From: Desulfobacteraceae bacterium
Lineage (GTDB): Bacteria > Desulfobacterota > Desulfobacteria > Desulfobacterales > SURF-7
DNA length: 39,678 bases
Direction of reading: 5' to 3'
Assembly: GCA_003599865.1 (NCBI GenBank)
Contig: QZKS01000086.1
Span: 1-39,678 of the forward strand
Within the stretch, counting starts at the first letter, position 1; each line of letters opens with the position of its first letter. The position numbers and the translations under genes are program-made. This document shows positions 9,242-18,775 of this stretch, piece after piece. A model generated the notes under the pieces. The model did no database searches, had not been told where the DNA came from, and saw nothing but the letters and a program-made list of their open reading frames with translations.

Positions 9242-10192
9242 TCAACCTATAATCAGTTTTTCATGATGAAAAACATTCCATACCACGTTTTCAAATTTCT
9301 CCATTGATTTGGTCTTTTTGATCTTTTTATATATTTCAGCCTTGTTCTGAAATGCCTGGGAAAAATAGTACCAAAACCCTTTCATTTTATCCATTGCGTG
9401 TGACGGACCGCTCATGGAAGACTGATATTGTTTCCATAAGGAATCATGGAACTCCTGCATTTTTTGGATCTTATCCGAAATATCGTCCTTCCCTTTTTTC
9501 AGTATTTCCGGGAGAAAAGGATTGATCAGCGTACCCCTGCCGATCATCCATGTATCGATCTGCGGGAAACGGACGGATAAATTCCGGAACCCGTCAAGGC
9601 ATGTAATATCTCCATTATACACAATAGAATGTTTCAATTGATTTGTACATTCTTCAAACCGGTCAAGATGAACACTGCCTTCATACATCTGAATCCCGGT
9701 ACGTGGATGAATAATCAATTCTTTCAAAGGATAGCGATTGAAAACAGGTATGAGCTTCAGAATCTCTTCATCCTGATTTCTTCCGAGCCGGCATTTAATG
9801 GAAAGGTTTACCGGTATCTTCGGAATGACCTGAGATAAAAATGCATCGATCCGTTCCGGATACAACAGCATTCCGGAGCCGCGTTTTTTGTTGGCAACCA
9901 TGGGAAACGGACAACCCAGATTCCAGTTCACCGTGTCATATCCAAGATCATGTAATTTCCGGGCAAGATGGATAAAATCATCCCCGTTGTTGCTCATCAG
10001 TTGGGGCACAATGGGAATACCGGTATTGTTTTCCGGAAGGATATCCCGGATATGAGACCGGCTGATCTTTCTTCCCTGTATGGTGGATACAAACGGGGCA
10101 ACCGCCAGGTCAAATCCGCTGAAACATTCCGTGAAAACGTTTCTGAAGATTGCATTGGTTATTCCTTTGATCGGGGCCATATAGAGTTTCAT
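9242..10192 (-). CDS. dus: tRNA-dihydrouridine synthase
   Basis: 316 residues, FMN-dependent enzyme that reduces uridine to dihydrouridine in tRNA. Seen: MAPIKGITNAIFR at the N-terminus (TIM-barrel FMN site), PIVPQLMSNNGDDF, the catalytic Cys94 in NWNLGCPFPMVANKKRGSG, the FMN/RNA-binding Lys133 in SIKCRLG, His162 in IIHPRTG, YNGDI and the phosphate-binding MIGRGTLINP. Sequence details (PMVANKKRGSGML) fit the DusC-like or general bacterial branch; I do not assign A, B or C. Its ATG overlaps the rhomboid stop codon (ATGA), showing translational coupling, and its stop is next to the LUD gene. Confidence 0.93.
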   Translation of the reverse strand: MKLYMAPIKGITNAIFRNVFTECFSGFDLAVAPFVSTIQGRKISRSHIRDILPENNTGIPIVPQLMSNNGDDFIHLARKLHDLGYDTVNWNLGCPFPMVANKKRGSGMLLYPERIDAFLSQVIPKIPVNLSIKCRLGRNQDEEILKLIPVFNRYPLKELIIHPRTGIQMYEGSVHLDRFEECTNQLKHSIVYNGDITCLDGFRNLSVRFPQIDTWMIGRGTLINPFLPEILKKGKDDISDKIQKMQEFHDSLWKQYQSSMSGPSHAMDKMKGFWYYFSQAFQNKAEIYKKIKKTKSMEKFENVVWNVFHHEKLIIG

Positions 10193-11201: not shown

Positions 11202-12128
11202 ATGCAACAGGAAAATAATCATATCAGATCGGAACGCCGGACATTAGGGGATATTCCCGTCAATGTCCATTGGATTCTCACCAAAGATCGTGCGGAAATT
11301 GCGGTGAGCCATATCATGCCGGCAAATCATCGGAAAGGTTTGCCGCCTGTCATCCTTCTCCACGGAACCTATTCCAGACGAAATTTCTGGATATCACCAA
11401 AAGGTGTTGGCCTGGGAAGCTACCTGGCAAACCAGGGATTTGATGTCTGGATACCGGAACTCCGGGGACATGGTCTTTCGCCAAAAGGGAAGGACTTTTC
11501 CTCCATTACGGCTGAACAGCAAATTCGATTTGATATTCCGGCCATACAAAATTTTATACGTGATCGGACACAGATCCCGGTCACCTGGATTTGTCACTCT
11601 TTTGGCGGAGTGTATGCGCTGGCGTCTCTTTCCTGCAACTGGCTGGACCAAAGATCAATACGCGGCATGATCACCTTTGGAAGTCAGATCAGTAAAGGGG
11701 AAGGTTTCCTGAAAATCCCTCCCCTTGCATGGCTGTGTCAGGTTATTTTACGCTTGCTCGGCCATTTTCCGGCTCCGAAATTCGGCATGGGGCCCGAGAT
11801 CGAAGCGGCCGATACCATGATCGAGGTGATAGAATGGAAAAAATTCAGGGGGAAGTGGCGGAATTCCGAGGGCACTTCCTATTGGGATGGATTGAAACAG
11901 ATTCAAATTCCTGTCTGCTGTTTTGCTGCTGCTGCTGCTGATAAAAACGATCCGCCGTCCGGATGTGAAATACTATACAACCATATCGGCAGCAAACAGA
12001 AAACCTATACCCTTCTTGGAAAAAAGAACGGTTTTTTACAAGACTATGACCATATCGGGATGATTGTCAGCAAGGAGTCACAATCTGAAATATGGCCATT
12101 GATCGCAAAATTGGTAAAAACTATTTGA
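11202..12128 (+). CDS. Alpha/beta hydrolase
   Basis: 308 residues from the ATG at 11202, preceded by AAAGGATTTTTC; the longer frame from 11106 has no ribosome site and a non-conserved leader. The oxyanion region is VILLHGTYSRRNFW, the strand-4 loop is PELRGHGLSP, the nucleophile is Ser133 in WICHSFGGVYAL, and the likely catalytic His284 is in DYDHIGM. No signal peptide, so probably cytosolic. Substrate unknown: esterase or thioesterase-like. A run of five Ala codons (GCT)5 at 11925-11940 encodes the FAAAAAD loop. The 3' end overlaps the convergent nitroreductase gene by 8 bp. Confidence 0.85.
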   Translation: MQQENNHIRSERRTLGDIPVNVHWILTKDRAEIAVSHIMPANHRKGLPPVILLHGTYSRRNFWISPKGVGLGSYLANQGFDVWIPELRGHGLSPKGKDFSSITAEQQIRFDIPAIQNFIRDRTQIPVTWICHSFGGVYALASLSCNWLDQRSIRGMITFGSQISKGEGFLKIPPLAWLCQVILRLLGHFPAPKFGMGPEIEAADTMIEVIEWKKFRGKWRNSEGTSYWDGLKQIQIPVCCFAAAAADKNDPPSGCEILYNHIGSKQKTYTLLGKKNGFLQDYDHIGMIVSKESQSEIWPLIAKLVKTI

Positions 12129-13161
12129 TCCAGGTGACCCTGGGTTTTTCCCGCCTGACAATCCCATCGATTTTGCCTTGCGGGTAGCCGACAGCAAGAG
12201 AGGTAATCACCTGGAACGGATAAGCTATTCCCAGTCTCTTTTGGAATTTCTTATCATACTCGAGCGCCTTTGTGATGAGATCGATATAGCAGGTTCCAAG
12301 GCCCAGCGAATGAGCAGTGAGAACCATCGAATGTGCGCAGAGCCCCAGATCAAACTCTGTTCCGCCGATCGCCCGTTTATCGGCAAGAAAAATAATCATG
12401 GTGGGCGCGTTAAAGAACACCGACTGATCCGGATCACTGGTAACCGCATTCAGACCGCCATGTGCCCTTTGATCCGCATCTCCTCCGACAAACCAGACCA
12501 AAACCCAGAGAAGCCATTTCTGCCATCTTTTCAATTTTGCTTTTTTGTCGCCCGGGGTATACTTATCCATCCATGTTCCCGGTATGCAAAGCCGGCTGAA
12601 AAATCGCAATACTTTTTTACTTCTGCGGTTCAGTTCGGTCAAGACCTTCGGATCCTGAATCACCACAAATTTCCATGGCTGGTTATTTCCTGCGGAAGGA
12701 GCAAATCTTCCGGCCTCGATGATTCGATTGAGCAACTCCGGTTCAACCTGTTTTTTCTTGAACAGCCGGTTGCTGCGTCTCTTGTAGATCACCCTCTCCA
12801 CTTCGGTCAGTTTATGCTGATAGGATTCAAAATCCGTTCCATTATTCTTTCCAAATGGAGCCGGCAGGGTTTTGGTGCCGGTATAGAGATTTTCATTCTT
12901 CCAGAAGCCTCTGGGGACGCGATAGTCTTTTTCGATTCGAATGGCGCCTTCCGGGCATACCGTTGCACAGTTCTCACAGGTAAGACAGCGGAATGCATCA
13001 TATCGATAATTAGAACGGGAAACCTTGTTGTAAATTTCCAGAAGCTGAACAGGGCATGTCTTTACGCACCGTCCGCAGCCTGTGCATTTGTCAGGATCAA
13101 CAATCAACTCCGCCCATTTTGCAGGCGGCATCGCCACTAACCTGTATTTTTCAAAAAGCAT
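12121..13161 (-). CDS. Nitroreductase-family flavoprotein with N-terminal 2[4Fe-4S] ferredoxin domain
   Basis: 346 residues from the ATG at 13161, which follows AGGGAGCCGTAAA; the frame extends to an ATG at 13203, but that lies only about 8 bases after the predicted transcription start and lacks a ribosome site. Residues 26-36 and 59-69 give two complete [4Fe-4S] motifs (CTGCGRCVKTCP, CLTCENCATVCP). From about residue 115 an FMN-binding nitroreductase domain follows (IYKRRSNRLFKKK, APSAGNNQPWKF, LGLCAHSMVLTAHSLGLGTCYI). A hydrophobic stretch (KWLLWVLVWFVGG) interrupts the domain and might touch the membrane. Such fusions pass ferredoxin electrons to FMN for reduction of an unsaturated or nitro substrate; the substrate is unknown. 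Its promoter shares an operator with the 14659 operon. Confidence 0.88.
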   Translation of the reverse strand: MLFEKYRLVAMPPAKWAELIVDPDKCTGCGRCVKTCPVQLLEIYNKVSRSNYRYDAFRCLTCENCATVCPEGAIRIEKDYRVPRGFWKNENLYTGTKTLPAPFGKNNGTDFESYQHKLTEVERVIYKRRSNRLFKKKQVEPELLNRIIEAGRFAPSAGNNQPWKFVVIQDPKVLTELNRRSKKVLRFFSRLCIPGTWMDKYTPGDKKAKLKRWQKWLLWVLVWFVGGDADQRAHGGLNAVTSDPDQSVFFNAPTMIIFLADKRAIGGTEFDLGLCAHSMVLTAHSLGLGTCYIDLITKALEYDKKFQKRLGIAYPFQVITSLAVGYPQGKIDGIVRREKPRVTWIK

Positions 13162-13217
13162 TTTACGGCTCCCTGTCATTTTTATAGTTTGGTTTATTGC
13201 CATACCGATTTTCTAAT

Positions 13218-13246
13218 CCTATAAATCGAACTGACTACGCAGTCAA
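13218..13246 (-). promoter_or_regulatory. Promoter of the nitroreductase gene with 18-bp operator over the -35 box
   Basis: Read on the minus strand: -35 TTGACT (13246-13241), 17-bp spacer, -10 TATAGG (13223-13218). The -35 is the left half of TTGACTGCGTAGTCAGTT (13229-13246), an interrupted palindrome (TGACT-N4-AGTCA). The same motif, in the same register to the -35 and -10, is found at 14560-14577. The expected start of transcription is near 13211, about 50 bases upstream of the ATG at 13161. Confidence 0.6.
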
Positions 13247-13380
13247 GAAAAAAGAGAACGGTTTTCCATCCCCACACGCAGAATCCTGAAATCGGACATA
13301 TCGAATCAAGGGATACTATCATTTAATATTAACTATTATAAATTGTTATTATTCTGAATACGTTCCCTATTTTTCAATGC

Positions 13381-13419
13381 TTGTAATTTTTAAAAATATT
13401 TACTATATGTATAGTTAAT
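13381..13419 (+). promoter_or_regulatory. Promoter and AT-rich palindrome of the MerR-TetR regulator gene
   Basis: A possible -35 TTGTAA (13381-13386) and -10 TATATG (13404-13409) are 17 bp apart. A 22-bp near-perfect palindrome (13398-13419) covers the -10: left arm ATTTACTATA, centre TG, right arm TATAGTTAAT, one mismatch. A half-site ATTAACTAT recurs at 13328-13336. The position fits autorepression. The promoter boxes are weak; the palindrome is the stronger evidence. Confidence 0.5.
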
Positions 13420-13474
13420 AGTCAAAAACTGGTAAATCCGCCAATCTTTACACTACCGTTTTAAAGGAAACACC

Positions 13475-14374
13475 ATGAAGAATCGTTCAAAATGGTTTCG
13501 CATTGCGGAATTGGAAAAAATCTCAGATATCCCGAGGAGAACCATTCATTTTTATCTCCAAAAAGGTTTGCTTCATCCTCCGACCAAAACCGGAAAAACA
13601 ATGTCTTATTATGATGACTCCCACATTAAAAAACTCGCATTCATCAAAAAAGCAAAATCCCAGGGATTGCCGCTTATTGCCATTCAAGCTGAGATAGAAA
13701 GCATGCAGACAGTCGATCCGGAAGCGTTTGGAGAAACTGCCGAGGAATCCCCTTCCCAAGCGATTCAGAAAGAAGCCAAAAACAGCAAACCCAGAAAGAC
13801 ACAGGGAATCAAAACAAGGGAATCGATTCTCGACGTCGGGTGCAGGCTTTTTCGGGAAAAAGGATATAAGGAAACAAAAATCAGCGATGTTGTAAAAGCC
13901 ATGAATGTGGGCAAAGGCACATTTTATTTCTATTTCTCCGATAAAAGAGAGCTTCTGCTGGAATGCGTACCCAGAATTTTCAGCGAACTTTTTTCCGAAG
14001 GATGGGAAAGGCTGCGAAAAATCAAGAATCCATTGGAACGTCTTGAGCAGCGGGCAAAAACCGTCTTACCGGTTTTGTCTGAATTCTGCTCGATCATTCA
14101 GTTAAGCAAAGAAGCCATGGAAGATCCGGACCCCAAATTGCAGTATCTGGGCGAACAAACTTATCTGTCCATTCGAAGCCCTTTGGAATCAGACATTGAA
14201 AAAAGTATAGCCGGTGGATTGATTAAAAAAATTGACCCCAAAATCGCGGCAACCTTTTTAATCGGGGCCATGGAGAGCTTGAATTACCTGCCGACCATTG
14301 AAAAAAATGTTCATCCGAATTCCTTTTGGGATGACTATCTGAGCCTCATCACAAACGGTATTCGAGGACGATAG
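13475..14374 (+). CDS. Transcriptional regulator with fused MerR-type and TetR-type DNA-binding domains
   Basis: 299 residues, start after TTAAAGGAAACACC. Residues 7-75 are a MerR-type winged helix (FRIAELEKISDIPRRTIHFYLQKG, given here as family signature: IAELEKISDIPRRTIHFYL; then LAFIKKAKSQGLPL). A charged linker (about 80-112) leads to a TetR HTH at about 115-162 (TRESILDVGCRLFREKGY, ISDVVKAMNVGKGTFYFYF) and a helical ligand-binding domain to the end. TetR regulators usually have only one HTH and about 200 residues, so this is a true two-domain fusion. It lies between the nitroreductase gene and the SDR-thiolase operon, and is the natural candidate to bind the operator shared by their promoters. 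The inducing ligand is unknown; acyl-CoAs are plausible for this neighbourhood. Confidence 0.9.
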   Translation: MKNRSKWFRIAELEKISDIPRRTIHFYLQKGLLHPPTKTGKTMSYYDDSHIKKLAFIKKAKSQGLPLIAIQAEIESMQTVDPEAFGETAEESPSQAIQKEAKNSKPRKTQGIKTRESILDVGCRLFREKGYKETKISDVVKAMNVGKGTFYFYFSDKRELLLECVPRIFSELFSEGWERLRKIKNPLERLEQRAKTVLPVLSEFCSIIQLSKEAMEDPDPKLQYLGEQTYLSIRSPLESDIEKSIAGGLIKKIDPKIAATFLIGAMESLNYLPTIEKNVHPNSFWDDYLSLITNGIRGR

Positions 14375-14559
14375 AAAATGATCAAAACATTCCAAACTGT
14401 GCACATATTATACATCAACTATACAAACTGCTCATTGCCTGCAATCCATCCTGAAATTCAATATCATCTTTTAATATATAACTAAAAGCAACATAGACGA
14501 GTTCTCATCTTTACAGTTGTTAGGCAGTGCCCGAAAAAAGAAAATTTATTATTTTTTTC

Positions 14560-14588
14560 TTGACCCACAAGTCAATTTAGAATATCAC
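14560..14588 (+). promoter_or_regulatory. Promoter of the SDR-thiolase operon with 18-bp operator over the -35 box
   Basis: -35 TTGACC (14560-14565), 17-bp spacer, -10 TATCAC (14583-14588). The operator TTGACCCACAAGTCAATT (14560-14577) has arms TTGAC and GTCAA and aligns without gaps to the site at 13229-13246 on the other strand (shared TTGACY-N4-AGTCARTT). The leader to the ATG at 14659 is about 65 bases. Confidence 0.58.
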
Positions 14589-14658: not shown

Positions 14659-16461
14659 ATGGGAAAAAAAGTAGCCATCACAGGAGTCACCAGTTATTTT
14701 GCGTTAACACTGTTGCCCAAATTACAGGCCGATCCGGAGGTCGATGAAATTATCGGGATCGGTAGACGGCCATGGACAGGCGGGTTCGACAAGCTGACAT
14801 ACTACCGGGAAGACATCAGAAGCAAGAAACTGTTCGATCTTTTCAAGGGAGTGGATACCGTCTATCATCTGGCATTTATCGTCGGTGAGATACACGACAA
14901 GGGAAAAACTCTTGATATCAATATCAATGGATCGAAAAATGTATTTCAGGCCTGTGCGGCAAACAAGGTAAAAAAAGTAATCTATACCAGCAGCATGACG
15001 GCCTACGGATCTCACAGCGACAATATTTTAGGGTTTAAGGAAGATGCCGAGCTGAAGCGAAATGAAGACAATTACTACAATTCCAGCAAAATAGATGTAG
15101 AAAATTTTGTGACTGATTTTTTTCGGGATTATCCGGAAATCACACTCACCGTTCTGCGGGCAGGGCTTCTGGTAGGGCCGAAAATCAACAACATGTTTTC
15201 AGACCTGTGGTCCATGAAAATATCGGCATTGCCTGCAGGAAGAACATCTCATAATCAAATGATCAGCGAAGAAGATCTTGGCGAGGCCATGTATCTTCCT
15301 TTTGTCAAAAATCTCCCGGGGATTTACAATGTCGCGGCTGATGACGCAGTCCCCACAAGATGGTGTTTCAAAGCCACCGGAGCCTTTGTTATTCCTTTAC
15401 CGATCTTCCTTCTGAAACTCGTTGCGAAAATCGCTTTCAAACTGCATCTGTTTCCCGCCAGCGATGGCTGGGTTAGCCTGAGTGAGTATACCATATTCTG
15501 CAACACGGAAAAATTCAAAAAAGCCGCAGACTGGCAGCCGAAACATTCTTCAAAAGAAGCATTTATGCAATTTGTTGCCTCCCGGAAAAGAGATGCAAAA
15601 GATACCCCGAAACAGGCATTGCTCACCTTTTTGTACACGACCCCATGGCTGACCAAACTCAGCCTGCAAGGCCTCAATGCGCTTTTTTATGTCATCGAAA
15701 AAACACCAATTATAAGAGACATCATCCCGATTACCAATCCGCACAAAAACAACATGACCTATCTGCCCACCAATAAAAACATTGTGGACAAAACACTGAA
15801 GGTTGTTGAAGTCAATGAAAGCCTGGGAGAAACCATAAACGAGATACTTCCCCAGAAGGTGCTGGATGACATGATTGATACCTACTCGTATCACATGGTC
15901 ATGGATACCTGCATCTGCCGGACCGGATACCAGTGCAAAAATTTTACAAATGAAATAGGCTGCATGTTTATGGGAGAAACGGCAAAAAAACTTCCCCCCG
16001 GGCTAGGACGAAGGGTTACCAGAGAGCAGGCCCATGACCATGTCAAAAGAGCGGTTAGCGTCGGCCTGATACCCATGACCGGAAAGGTCAATGTGGATAA
16101 CCTTGGTTTCCTGACCCCGGATACAAGGGAGCTGTTCAGCGTATGCTTCTGCTGCCATTGCTGCTGTATGATGGGGTATTATAAACACTCACCGGAACAT
16201 CAGAAAAAATTATTCAAACCTGTCGAGGGCCTTCATGTCCGTGTCAACCAAAACTGCATAGGATGCGGGAAGTGCATTGAAACATGCATCTTTGATAATA
16301 TCATCATTGAAAACGGTGCTGCGCTTCATCTGGATCACTGTGTCGGGTGCGGCAGGTGCCAGACGACATGTCCGAATCTTGCGGTTGATATTTCGGTCAA
16401 CAACCCGAACTATGTAGAGGATGTAAAAAATCGTCTCACATCTTTTATCAAGGTATCATAA
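14659..16461 (+). CDS. Fusion of an NAD(P)-dependent epimerase/dehydratase (extended SDR) with a Cys-rich module and 2[4Fe-4S] ferredoxin
   Basis: 600 residues, start after ATGGAGTCAAAGCA. Residues 1-310 are an extended SDR: Rossmann start VAITGVTSYFALTLL (atypical, the last Gly of GxxGxxG is replaced by Ala), VYHLAFIVGE, YTSSMTAYG and the catalytic pair Tyr140-xxx-Lys144. Residues about 320-410 are a linker. Residues 418-503 hold a Cys module, with Cys418, 420, 426 and 435 and then the dense cluster Cys496, 498, 499, 501, 502, 503 (CFCCHCCC). Two [4Fe-4S] motifs follow at Cys533/536/539/543 and Cys561/564/567/571. This would couple an NAD(P) oxidoreductase to low-potential Fe-S electron flow. 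First gene of the operon; 45 bp before the thiolase. Substrate unknown: a 3-keto or 3-hydroxy acyl or sterol-like compound would fit the SDR branch. Confidence 0.87.
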   Translation: MGKKVAITGVTSYFALTLLPKLQADPEVDEIIGIGRRPWTGGFDKLTYYREDIRSKKLFDLFKGVDTVYHLAFIVGEIHDKGKTLDININGSKNVFQACAANKVKKVIYTSSMTAYGSHSDNILGFKEDAELKRNEDNYYNSSKIDVENFVTDFFRDYPEITLTVLRAGLLVGPKINNMFSDLWSMKISALPAGRTSHNQMISEEDLGEAMYLPFVKNLPGIYNVAADDAVPTRWCFKATGAFVIPLPIFLLKLVAKIAFKLHLFPASDGWVSLSEYTIFCNTEKFKKAADWQPKHSSKEAFMQFVASRKRDAKDTPKQALLTFLYTTPWLTKLSLQGLNALFYVIEKTPIIRDIIPITNPHKNNMTYLPTNKNIVDKTLKVVEVNESLGETINEILPQKVLDDMIDTYSYHMVMDTCICRTGYQCKNFTNEIGCMFMGETAKKLPPGLGRRVTREQAHDHVKRAVSVGLIPMTGKVNVDNLGFLTPDTRELFSVCFCCHCCCMMGYYKHSPEHQKKLFKPVEGLHVRVNQNCIGCGKCIETCIFDNIIIENGAALHLDHCVGCGRCQTTCPNLAVDISVNNPNYVEDVKNRLTSFIKVS

Positions 16462-16506
16462 CCGTAAACCCAAACAACAATGTTTTTTGAAATAAAGGAG
16501 TTTTTC

Positions 16507-17730
16507 ATGCGAGATGTAGCAATTGTCGGCGCTGGAATGATCAAATTCGGCAAATACCCGGAGAAAGGGATTAAGGATCTTGTTCGTGAGGCCGTAACCG
16601 AAACACTCAAGGACGCAGGAATGGATTCCTCCCTTCTGGAAGCCGCCTATGTCGGTTCGGCTGCCCCTGGTATCATGACCGGACAGGAGCAAATCAAGGC
16701 GCAGGTCACACTGAGTGCGATGGGTATTGATACCATACCCATGTATAATATTGAAAACGCCTGTGCAAGCTCTTCTTCTGCATTCAATCTTGCTTATACT
16801 GCTGTCGGCGCCGGTGTATATGACTGCGCCCTCGTTGTCGGATTCGAAAAATTATATGACAAGGATAAAATGAAATCATTCATGGCCTTGGGAACCGCTG
16901 TTGATATTGAAAACGTCATGCAGTTTCTGGAAGATTTTATGGCAAAACAAGGTAAAAACGAAAGCATCATGTCTTCCGACAGCGGAAAAAGTAAAAGCAT
17001 TTTCATGGATATGTATGCCTATTATACCAGAACCTACATGGAACGATATGGATTGACCCAGGAACATTTTGCAAAAATTGCCGTAAAAAGCCATAAAAAT
17101 GGAGCGCTGAATCCGCATGCCATGTATCAGAAGGAGGTCACGGTCGAGGAAGTGATTAACTCGGGAGATATTTCTTATCCTTTAACCAAAATGATGTGCT
17201 CCCCGGTTTGCGATGGAGCTGCGGCAGCGATTATCTGTTCCAAAGAAAAAGCCGCACAATTTACAACAACCCCTATCTGGGTGCAAGCTTCCGTGATTGG
17301 AAGCGGAAGGGTAAGCCATGATCTAGGAGATACGCTGACAAAGAGGCTGGGTCCAAAAGCTTTTGAATCCGCTGGAATTGGGCCTGAAGATATTGATATC
17401 ATAGAGGTTCATGATGCCACCTCGCCTTCTGAAATTATTACCCTGATTGAACTTGGCATTATTCCGGGTGAAGATGCGCCCCGATGTATTGATGAGGGAT
17501 GGCTGGAGCTGAACGGTAAAATGCCATCGAATACCTCGGGAGGCCTTGCATCAAAAGGGCATCCCATTGGAGCCACCGGTCTTGGTCAAATCCATGAAGT
17601 TGTTCAGCAGCTCAGAGGGAATGCGGGAAAACGTCAGGTAGCCGGGGCTAAAGTCGGTATGACTCACAACGGGGGCGGAATTCTTGGCGTAGATGCCGCA
17701 GCAATGGCTCTGCACATATTCAAGCGGTAG
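16507..17730 (+). CDS. Thiolase, SCP2/SCP-x-like branch
   Basis: 407 residues from the ATG at 16507, which follows AAAGGAGTTTTTC; the ATG at 16480 has no such site. The nucleophile Cys86 is in ENACASSSSAF, the HPIGATG histidine is His352 and the C-terminal catalytic element is THNGGG with His387, the form typical of SCP2-type thiolases rather than the Cys-GGG of FadA/AtoB. The family cleaves or forms 3-oxoacyl-CoA, often with bulky or branched substrates; some relatives do not condense at all. In bacteria such thiolases often work with a small OB-fold (DUF35) partner, which is absent here. Sits between two Fe-S genes and probably acts on the product of the SDR fusion. Confidence 0.9.
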   Translation: MRDVAIVGAGMIKFGKYPEKGIKDLVREAVTETLKDAGMDSSLLEAAYVGSAAPGIMTGQEQIKAQVTLSAMGIDTIPMYNIENACASSSSAFNLAYTAVGAGVYDCALVVGFEKLYDKDKMKSFMALGTAVDIENVMQFLEDFMAKQGKNESIMSSDSGKSKSIFMDMYAYYTRTYMERYGLTQEHFAKIAVKSHKNGALNPHAMYQKEVTVEEVINSGDISYPLTKMMCSPVCDGAAAAIICSKEKAAQFTTTPIWVQASVIGSGRVSHDLGDTLTKRLGPKAFESAGIGPEDIDIIEVHDATSPSEIITLIELGIIPGEDAPRCIDEGWLELNGKMPSNTSGGLASKGHPIGATGLGQIHEVVQQLRGNAGKRQVAGAKVGMTHNGGGILGVDAAAMALHIFKR

Positions 17731-17733
17731 AAG

Positions 17734-17814
17734 AAAAAAGTGCCTTTGGGTTTTCATTTATCAATCATAAACAACTGGCTGACATCACACACATGATAGC
17801 CAAAGGCACTTTTT
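17734..17814 (+). terminator. Long-loop hairpin after the thiolase gene (terminator or mRNA-stability element)
   Basis: A 15-bp perfect inverted repeat: AAAAAGTGCCTTTGG (17735-17749) and CCAAAGGCACTTTTT (17800-17814), with a 50-base loop. The T run after the right arm would suit intrinsic termination, but the loop is much longer than usual. It lies in the 139-bp gap between the thiolase and the next Fe-S gene, so it may only reduce read-through. Confidence 0.5.
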
Positions 17815-17869
17815 ACTTCTCATTGTGATCAAACAATTAGGATATTGTCTCTATCCGGGAGAAAAGTCA

Positions 17870-18775
17870 ATGAAGCAATCTTCAAAAGATATCTTAAAAA
17901 GACATGGTTGGCGAATTGACAGAGCGATACACAATTTCTGCTATTTTTACTTTCATAAACCGTATGTAGCAGGTGCACGTCTCCTGACCAAAACAACCGT
18001 ACTCCTTCTCTCCTGGTTTAAACCGATCAAAGTGATCCCGAATGCTGTTTTTAACCGTTATCATTCTAAAATCCTTTCCACCGGCGATGTAACCAAAATA
18101 TTAACCCTCAATGAAGATATTGACCTGGGAATAGACAAAAGCAAACGGGTTCTGCCATTTAAATATGCTACCAAAATATTCATCCGGAACCCGAAATTAA
18201 TCGCCACAATGGATTGCCCCTGTGCGCTAAACCAGAAAGAATCGGAGCGCTGTCAACCATTGCGAAAATGTATTGCCATCGGCCAAGACTTTGCTCCTAT
18301 ATGGCTCGAGCACTGCAAGGAAAAATACAATGCCATCCAGATTACACAGGAAGAAGCGTTAGACATCATCAAAGAAGCACGAAAAACCGGACATGTTACC
18401 AATGCTTTTTTAAAAGTCGCCACAGGCGGCATCACAGGGATTATTTGCAACTGCTGTCCAAAGTGCTGTGTTGAGATCGAGGCGACAAGGCTTTCCCGAA
18501 AGATTGATCCCGATATTTCTCAATATGCGCCTTCCGGGTATTCGGTAAAGCATGATCCTGAATTGTGCACGCTCTGTGGTGAATGCGAACAGGTTTGTCC
18601 CTTTGAAGCCATCAAAATCCATGACAATCAATTTATCTATGATATCAAAGCGTGTATGGGTTGCGAACTCTGCGTCGAGAGATGCCCTACGGCAGCTCTG
18701 ACGCTGTATAATGATCCGGAAAAACTTCTTCCCCTTGATATTGAATTGCTGAAAACGGAATTGAATAAAGAATAG
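17870..18775 (+). CDS. Fe-S protein with Cys module shared with the 600-residue SDR fusion, and 2[4Fe-4S] ferredoxin
   Basis: 301 residues from the ATG at 17870 (CGGGAG upstream); a GTG at 17825 would add 15 residues. The N-terminal 110 residues are basic with one hydrophobic stretch (TTVLLLSWF, about 42-50). A Cys module follows: Cys116 and Cys118 (MDCPCALN), Cys128, Cys134, Cys149, then Cys193/195/196/199/200 (IICNCCPKCC). It ends in two [4Fe-4S] motifs, Cys233/236/239/243 and Cys262/265/268/272. The order and wording (MDxCxC, xxeeAxxxxxxAxxxGxvxN, CxCCxxCC, ferredoxin) match residues 415-575 of the SDR fusion upstream, so the two are paralogous over this part. Role unknown; electron transfer for the SDR-thiolase pathway is likely. 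Ends 5 bp from the convergent ubiB-like gene. Confidence 0.82.
   Translation: MKQSSKDILKRHGWRIDRAIHNFCYFYFHKPYVAGARLLTKTTVLLLSWFKPIKVIPNAVFNRYHSKILSTGDVTKILTLNEDIDLGIDKSKRVLPFKYATKIFIRNPKLIATMDCPCALNQKESERCQPLRKCIAIGQDFAPIWLEHCKEKYNAIQITQEEALDIIKEARKTGHVTNAFLKVATGGITGIICNCCPKCCVEIEATRLSRKIDPDISQYAPSGYSVKHDPELCTLCGECEQVCPFEAIKIHDNQFIYDIKACMGCELCVERCPTAALTLYNDPEKLLPLDIELLKTELNKE

Follow-up and report, generated by a model that had tools for sequence, protein, structure and literature searches.

A MerR-TetR fusion regulator of Desulfobacterota and a predicted two-part operator, palindrome plus direct repeats, at its iron-sulfur and thiolase target genes

The window is the whole stretch of DNA analysed here, 39,678 nucleotides long (positions 1–39,678 of the forward strand of contig QZKS01000086.1, assembly GCA_003599865.1, Desulfobacteraceae bacterium). 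The features of the locus are listed in Table 1. A gene for a ferredoxin-nitroreductase fusion (NR) is followed on the opposite strand by the gene for a MerR-TetR fusion regulator (REG), and downstream of REG lie the genes for an iron-sulfur dehydrogenase fusion (SDR) and a thiolase. A strong hairpin with a 15-bp stem (window 17734–17816, z −6.4), followed by U's, is located between the thiolase gene and the next gene for a 4Fe-4S protein, and may mark the end of the SDR-thiolase operon ahead of the latter. At several loci, an AMP-ligase gene sits between the SDR and thiolase targets. In one relative (L107:9157–11066), two separate adjoining genes (319 and 304 aa) encode the SDR and iron-sulfur parts that form a single protein in the window.

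Table 1. Genes, protein domains and DNA elements of the locus in window coordinates
Feature	Position	Strand	Evidence
NR: 4Fe-4S ferredoxin domain + nitroreductase fusion, 360 aa; first target	12121..13203	−	Pfam Fer4 and Nitroreductase
Inferred NR −10, TATAGG, 17 bp after −35 TTGACT (13246–13241)	13218..13223	−	inferred promoter
T1 over −35 of NR: TTGACT-N4-AGTCAG on minus strand, 1 mismatch	13231..13246	palindrome, unstranded	sequence scan + conservation
M1: 11-bp repeat TAACTATACAT (13417–13407) + degenerate neighbour (13406–13396); 174 bp from T1	13396..13417	−	motif discovery, matrix, repeat test
REG: MerR-TetR fusion regulator, 299 aa	13475..14374	+	Pfam MerR_1 and TetR_N; conservation over 28 clade-A loci
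MerR winged helix-turn-helix head, residues 8–72	13496..13690	+	Pfam, AlphaFold2
Low-confidence (disordered) linker, residues 88–111	13736..13807	+	AlphaFold2 pLDDT under 50
TetR helix-turn-helix head, residues 118–164; FadR-like ligand domain to about residue 295	13826..13966	+	Pfam, AlphaFold2, PDB matches
M2: three successive 11-mers, AAACTGTGCAC ATATTATACAT CAACTATACAA; 147 bp from T2	14394..14426	+	matrix, register and repeat tests
T2 over −35 of SDR operon: exact palindrome TTGACCCACAAGTCAA	14560..14575	palindrome, unstranded	sequence scan + conservation
Inferred SDR-operon −10, TATCAC, 17 bp after TTGACC	14583..14588	+	inferred promoter
SDR/3-beta-HSD-like dehydrogenase fused to Cys-rich and 4Fe-4S part, 600 aa; target	14659..16461	+	domain search
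Thiolase (PRK06064/SCP-x-like), 416 aa; target, SDR operon	16480..17730	+	domain search
4Fe-4S protein, 316 aa; possible further operon member	17825..18775	+	domain search; separated from the thiolase by a strong hairpin

REG carries the winged helix-turn-helix of the MerR family (Pfam MerR_1, E 2.4e-17) as well as the traits of the TetR family, i.e., a TetR_N domain (E 2.7e-15) followed by an all-helical ligand/dimer domain with FadR as its best PDB match. The TetR part starts only at residue 113–118, after the MerR domain, and a DNA-binding domain of the TetR type is not found at the N terminus. REG is filed as a TetR-type fusion and not as a standard TetR member. The AlphaFold2 model consists of two domains (mean pLDDT 80, pTM 0.58). 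In this model the long coiled coil or dimerisation helix of MerR proteins is missing, with a helix at residues 67–80 only. No cobalamin-binding domain was found in REG by Pfam, the TetR domain being present instead. Against the PDB, the top six matches of the model are all Bacillus FadR, one of them being a stearoyl-CoA complex, and the NCBIfam FadR model gives 36.9 bits on REG, below its cut-off of 200 bits. Because of the structural matches to FadR and the presence of a thiolase, an SDR and an AMP-ligase among the targets, an acyl-CoA or another CoA thioester would be the likeliest inducer of REG, as judged from the predicted model.

The original prediction placed one 18-bp operator over the two promoters that flank REG, and both 18-mers were confirmed: TTGACTGCGTAGTCAGTT on the minus strand (13246–13229) and TTGACCCACAAGTCAATT on the plus strand (14560–14577). 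These are the sole two exact matches in the window, in agreement with the same prediction, in which inspection by eye had not revealed the motif in the other upstream regions. The core of the 18-mer is better described as a 16-bp palindrome, TTGACY-N4-RGTCAA (T). T-like sequences with up to three mismatches are not in excess in the window (12 versus 13.9 expected).

TTGACY can be taken as the −35 box at both promoters with a −10 box 17 bp on, as predicted, though both −10 boxes are weak (log-odds of 2.2 for TATAGG and 1.7 for TATCAC). For each window promoter alone, another spacing scores higher (19 bp with 2.8 and 12 bp with 4.9). Over 39 orthologous sites, 17 bp gives the best mean −10 score (0.25), followed by −1.08 at 15 bp, and it is the top-scoring spacing at 13 of these sites individually. 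The spacer of 19–20 bp of MerR-type promoters is thus not observed, since the best mean −10 lies at 17 bp and T covers the −35 box.

The conservation of T was examined in relatives of REG. A contig search gave 26 loci, of which 21 are full-length loci from Desulfobacterota and five partial TetR-only matches were dropped; of 389 genomes of the order, 36 have a REG match, 25 of them in the clade of the window (clade A, E < 1e-100). T with at most one mismatch occurs in 35 of the 39 NR-REG or REG-SDR/thiolase gaps in 28 clade-A loci (20 exact), whereas dinucleotide shuffles of the same gaps (60 rounds) averaged 0.1 with no round above 1; since several loci are close relatives, some of the gaps are not independent of each other. 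T lies over the −35 box of the neighbouring genes, as palindromic operators of TetR-family regulators overlap such promoters. The REG-thiolase gaps of L032 and L034 (32 and 39 bp), in which the REG and thiolase genes look co-transcribed, have no T and were excluded from the shuffle count and from the matrix test described below. With both included, T is present in 35 of the 41 regulator-flanking gaps at Desulfobacterota loci, and the motif is accordingly conserved at orthologous genes. T-like sites are also found at clade-A loci of another order of the phylum (L212–L214).

The positions of T at relocated target genes should be noted. In G128, REG is solitary (L109), and exact T sites stand at −43 of NR on another contig and at −70 of SDR on a third contig. 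In G205 (L016), SDR, preceded by an exact T of its own at −101, is located about 6 kb from REG; neither is found within the 5 kb adjoining REG. NR homologues are found in 24 of the 389 genomes and clade-A REG in 25, both being present in 23; SDR homologues are found in 19 genomes, 15 of which have REG (five of the 26 SDR loci behind the homologue scan were dropped as partial or as split C-terminal matches). Among the 18 NR or SDR homologues on contigs other than that of REG, only six have T and 12 do not. Two of the six, in G230 and G244, are at contig ends and may actually be neighbours of REG. T is absent (4 and 2 mismatches) at the two NR/SDR homologues that were scanned in genomes lacking clade-A REG. 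The comparison therefore supports the predicted local regulon, in which NR and the SDR-FeS/thiolase genes are under the regulator between them: T recurs at the orthologous genes and follows relocated ones. As far as sequence comparison can tell, this local regulon is well supported, and T is very probably the operator of REG.

The scan of the whole genome, which the prediction had called for, agrees with it in one respect, as no exact palindrome occurs outside this locus, but no excess in number was observed (49 places with at most one mismatch versus 88 for the reversed control). The 25 carrier genomes together contain 79 exact T sites versus 61 for the reversed control, i.e., no genome-wide enrichment. 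Since the genome counts show no excess, T alone was dropped as a definition of the regulon, and its significance comes from conservation. The sole large excess of exact T is found in G154 (10 versus 1 for the reversed control). Eight further exact T sites of this genome, on contigs C8, C25, C99, C100, C110 and C168 (L139–L144), do not flank REG; they precede genes for SDR, DUF1329 proteins, acyl-CoA dehydrogenase, an FMN reductase/SCP2 fusion and others, and M, described below, is present at three of the eight. G154 probably has an enlarged regulon for a hydrophobic substrate, and the regulon is probably bigger than the local set in some genomes. Tandem pairs of exact T, 23–33 bp apart, were observed at L145:2038/2061, L146:1952/1985 and L147:2109/2132; in L145 and L146, from Desulfatibacillum-like genomes, the pair precedes the gene of a 336-aa protein, which in L145 is an alpha/beta hydrolase.

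A second conserved element, M, which the original prediction did not include, reads AACTATACA along the target gene and lies about 52–340 bp, usually at least 60 bp, upstream of T. It is inverted when read from REG and runs forward when read with the target gene. Motif discovery upstream of REG in 23 clade-A loci (five of the 28 were removed as near copies) gave TATGTATAGTTAcT with a score of 323 versus 212–218 in shuffles. In a leave-one-out scan the motif turned up unexpectedly on the opposite strand in the gap after REG. For this reason the REG-SDR/thiolase gaps were scored with a matrix trained on the NR-REG gaps only. The mean best M score in 21 such gaps is 12.9, versus 4.0 in 100 shuffles (sd 0.5, highest 5.6); L148 and L157 are outside this test and are covered by the set of 20 loci with exact T given below. 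The best match has the reversed orientation in 19 of the 21 gaps. In 13 gaps, M scores at least 11, is reversed and is at least 60 bp from T. In the other eight it overlaps T (L111), has the other orientation (L024 and L108) or is weaker (L023, L110, L102, L104 and L107). M is also found, in the same orientation and with scores of 12.9–16.5, at five of the six T-bearing targets on other contigs (NR and SDR of G128, SDR of G111, NR of G230 and NR of G244), and is absent at G140:C4. Among the 25 exact T sites in 20 loci hand-picked from the list for the 25 carriers, only six have M of at least 12 in the arrangement.

M has an 11-bp register. Over 43 M sites, the offset of +11 scores −2.1 against a background of about −14. 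Tandem TnnACA at a spacing of 11 is observed in 18 of 34 non-redundant gaps (the five of 39 left out belong to the close relatives L016, L018, L110 and L030), while the shuffled mean is 5.6 and the highest 9; this signal is clear but not clean, because TnnACA pairs of the same spacing on the opposite strand reach 13/34, and pairs spaced by 9 on the target strand reach 14/34. The second repeat at +11 is recognisable in only 15 of 39 gaps, so that M typically has one clear repeat and one weaker one. In the window, M1, which lies also within the promoter region of REG itself, is essentially a single repeat. In M2, the last two 11-mers fit nnnnTnnACAn exactly, and the first is one letter off. The distances between M and T show no clear helical phase (Rayleigh p 0.27–0.89; 0.02 at 11.0 bp, uncorrected), and a tight loop is therefore not favoured. 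At the level of sequence, conservation shows T, its position on the −35 box, its tie to the target genes, and M together with its orientation.

In the genome of the window, M of at least 13 in the arrangement accompanies three of the 49 T-like places with at most one mismatch, two of which are at this locus; at the other 46 places M does not exceed 6.8. The third place, G000:C83:9589–9756 (L261), consists of a T-like palindrome and M 153 bp away. It stands before the gene for a 553-aa acyl-CoA ligase at 9804, a third candidate target, and may be due to chance. M of at least 13 was found as four distinct matches in about 312 kb of strand scanned, one of which (L232) is in no arrangement with T; from these four matches we estimate that about 0.2 chance coincidences of T and M are expected.

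Comparison with other MerR-TetR proteins suggests which head reads which element, a point that the original prediction did not address. In the tree, clade A and clade B lie on either side of a branch with support of 100/99. Clade B is a paralogous group of 26 loci, in many of which the regulator adjoins another thiolase. Its palindrome is AAATGA-N4-TCATTT (motif discovery score of 437 versus 275–308 in shuffles), and boxes of TCTATAG share the upstream region of the palindrome with preferred offsets of −12/−15 and +16/+21/+22. An 11-bp register of these boxes is weak (offset −11 ranks fourth) and was seen by eye in a few loci (L077, L079 and L080), and it is therefore not claimed as general. 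The relative in G723 has AGTACC-GTTC-GGTACT followed by ACTATAGTTA. The core AACTATA is found beside the palindromes or at the own promoters of the clade-B and G723 regulators. In consensus sequence, the MerR heads of the two clades are 68% identical, their TetR helix-turn-helix regions 47% and their ligand domains 21%, and the TetR recognition helix is GKGTFYFYF in clade A versus STGTFYLYF in clade B. Because the 6-N4-6 palindrome and the TetR helix vary by group whereas the AACTATA core and the MerR head stay, we infer that the TetR head would read T. The same comparison makes it fairly probable that the MerR head reads M.

Several further forms of these proteins were observed. In G418, a 591-aa frame (L220:1059–2834, minus strand, contig C20), divergent from a thiolase gene, encodes MerR-TetR-MerR-TetR with two MerR_1 and two TetR_N domains. 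Its counterpart in G723 (L221) consists of two overlapping genes, and each half pairs with the matching gene in the tree. G463, in which six matches to the MerR-TetR family are found, and G428 encode MerR-TetR regulators of 457–465 aa with an extra C-terminal stretch (L222:1171–2568 and L227:1024–2397, both on the minus strand). The genome of the window has a clade-B paralogue (G000:C3:49549–50388, L076) divergent from an operon for thiolase, enoyl-CoA hydratase, acyl-CoA dehydrogenase and AMP-ligase, and a palindrome and CTATAG boxes are located between the regulator and this operon.

We consider that REG is, with somewhat better than even confidence, a FadR-like, acyl-CoA-responsive repressor whose TetR heads bind T and whose MerR heads bind M. 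A REG dimer would grip T through its TetR heads, and T over the −35 box would exclude RNA polymerase from the promoters of NR and of the SDR-thiolase operon. A CoA thioester of the pathway or a related metabolite, bound in the ligand domain, would free REG from DNA; we infer both the repression and the acyl-CoA ligand. The MerR heads on their flexible linker would read M as CarH-like 11-bp direct repeats, two heads per dimer facing the one clear and one weaker repeat of a typical M. M might recruit or tether the same regulator to the promoter, or serve autoregulation, which is possible because M1 lies also in the promoter region of REG. One dimer might further bridge T and M as a two-part operator to form a loop for repression (or poising), with clade B having the palindrome and an M-like part side by side and G418 carrying a duplicated, four-headed version of the entire protein. 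We put this bridging forward only tentatively, and the loop between M and T is speculative.

REG could alternatively be an ordinary TetR repressor that acts via T only, its MerR domain being a remnant or an added structural part, and M being the site of an unlinked factor such as a stand-alone MerR or CarH-like protein. T on the −35 box would suffice to explain repression, the distance between M and T varies from 52 to 340 bp without clear helical phase, and the genome does encode other MerR-type proteins (C4:28682 and C55:16304). However, of all parts the MerR head is the best conserved between the two clades, the AACTATA core recurs near the palindromes or own promoters of the clade-B and G723 regulators, and M fits the 11-bp repeat known for the MerR-type DNA-binding domain. 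We regard this alternative as rather unlikely. M might also be the −10 region (TATAGT) of the REG promoter, and elsewhere part of an antisense or divergent promoter, rather than an operator. In the NR-REG gap, M does lie 26–139 bp before the start of REG and contains TATAGT or TACAGT, with a −35-like TTGNNN at 16–17 bp in some loci. In the REG-SDR/thiolase gaps and before the targets on other contigs, however, M is on the reverse strand, where no gene start is expected in that direction, and its conservation extends beyond the hexamer and repeats at 11 bp. The presence of M in downstream gaps and at targets on other contigs led us to reject the −10 box for the most part, and it is improbable as a full account of M. 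It is very improbable that T serves another TetR-family protein (the genome has more than 10 further TetR-type matches) with REG as a bystander: T accompanies REG at 28 clade-A loci, 23 genomes have both NR and REG, and T is absent at the two NR/SDR homologues scanned in genomes lacking clade-A REG.

The usual picture of a one-component regulator is a single DNA-binding domain with a single sensor. REG instead has two DNA-binding families in one chain, both heads conserved, and targets with a matching two-part site. Beyond the operator and the local regulon, the comparison points to a family of two-headed regulators with a two-part operator of palindrome and direct repeats. If the binding modes are as proposed, REG would be a compact natural system for how one regulator combines two recognition codes, and the combination of T and M would pick regulon members that a degenerate palindrome cannot (three of 49 places in the own genome). 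The locus is also an entry point to how sulfate-reducing bacteria control an iron-sulfur/thiolase pathway that has yet to be characterised.

No MerR-TetR fusion was found in the literature by title or start of abstract among the matches listed, in which subscription journals are thinly covered. The hallmark of classical MerR activators is a promoter spacer of 19–20 bp with a dyad between the −35 and −10 boxes. CueR, ZntR and BmrR have the N-terminal winged helix in common with REG, but the REG model is without the long dimerisation helix and the target promoters of REG have a 17-bp spacer. In the same bacterial group, the sulP cluster of Desulfobacteraceae is described, in the available text of the source, as having a TetR-type repressor and a 16-bp palindrome near the promoter (PMC11887813). 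This repressor resembles REG in its type and in the length of its palindrome, but it controls different genes, and that text mentions no MerR.

CarH/LitR, as given in the accessible part of the description, combines a winged-helix head with an oligomerising sensor at the C terminus, and the CarH operator consists of tandem 11-bp nnnnTnnACAn units (PMC9304148). REG has this architecture and the tandem TnnACA repeats in common with CarH/LitR, the repeats at REG targets (18 of 34 gaps) being candidate sites. The fit of M is supportive and not decisive, because the published CarH consensus is loose. In REG, the cobalamin domain is replaced by TetR, and the M repeats lie 60–340 bp from the promoter, while the CarH repeats lie over it.

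The closest likeness of the TetR part in fold is to Bacillus FadR, the best PDB matches. The FadR proteins of Bacillus and Thermus, TetR-family repressors that respond to acyl-CoA, control acyl-CoA genes through a palindromic operator, as REG appears to do. FadR is without the additional N-terminal MerR head, and the likeness of the ligand domain of REG is a structural one, seen in the predicted model. The Thermus FadR consensus, TTRNACYNRGTNYAA in the portion of the source available (PMC5597230), resembles TTGACY...RGTCAA, but it has a 1-bp centre where that of REG has 4 bp.
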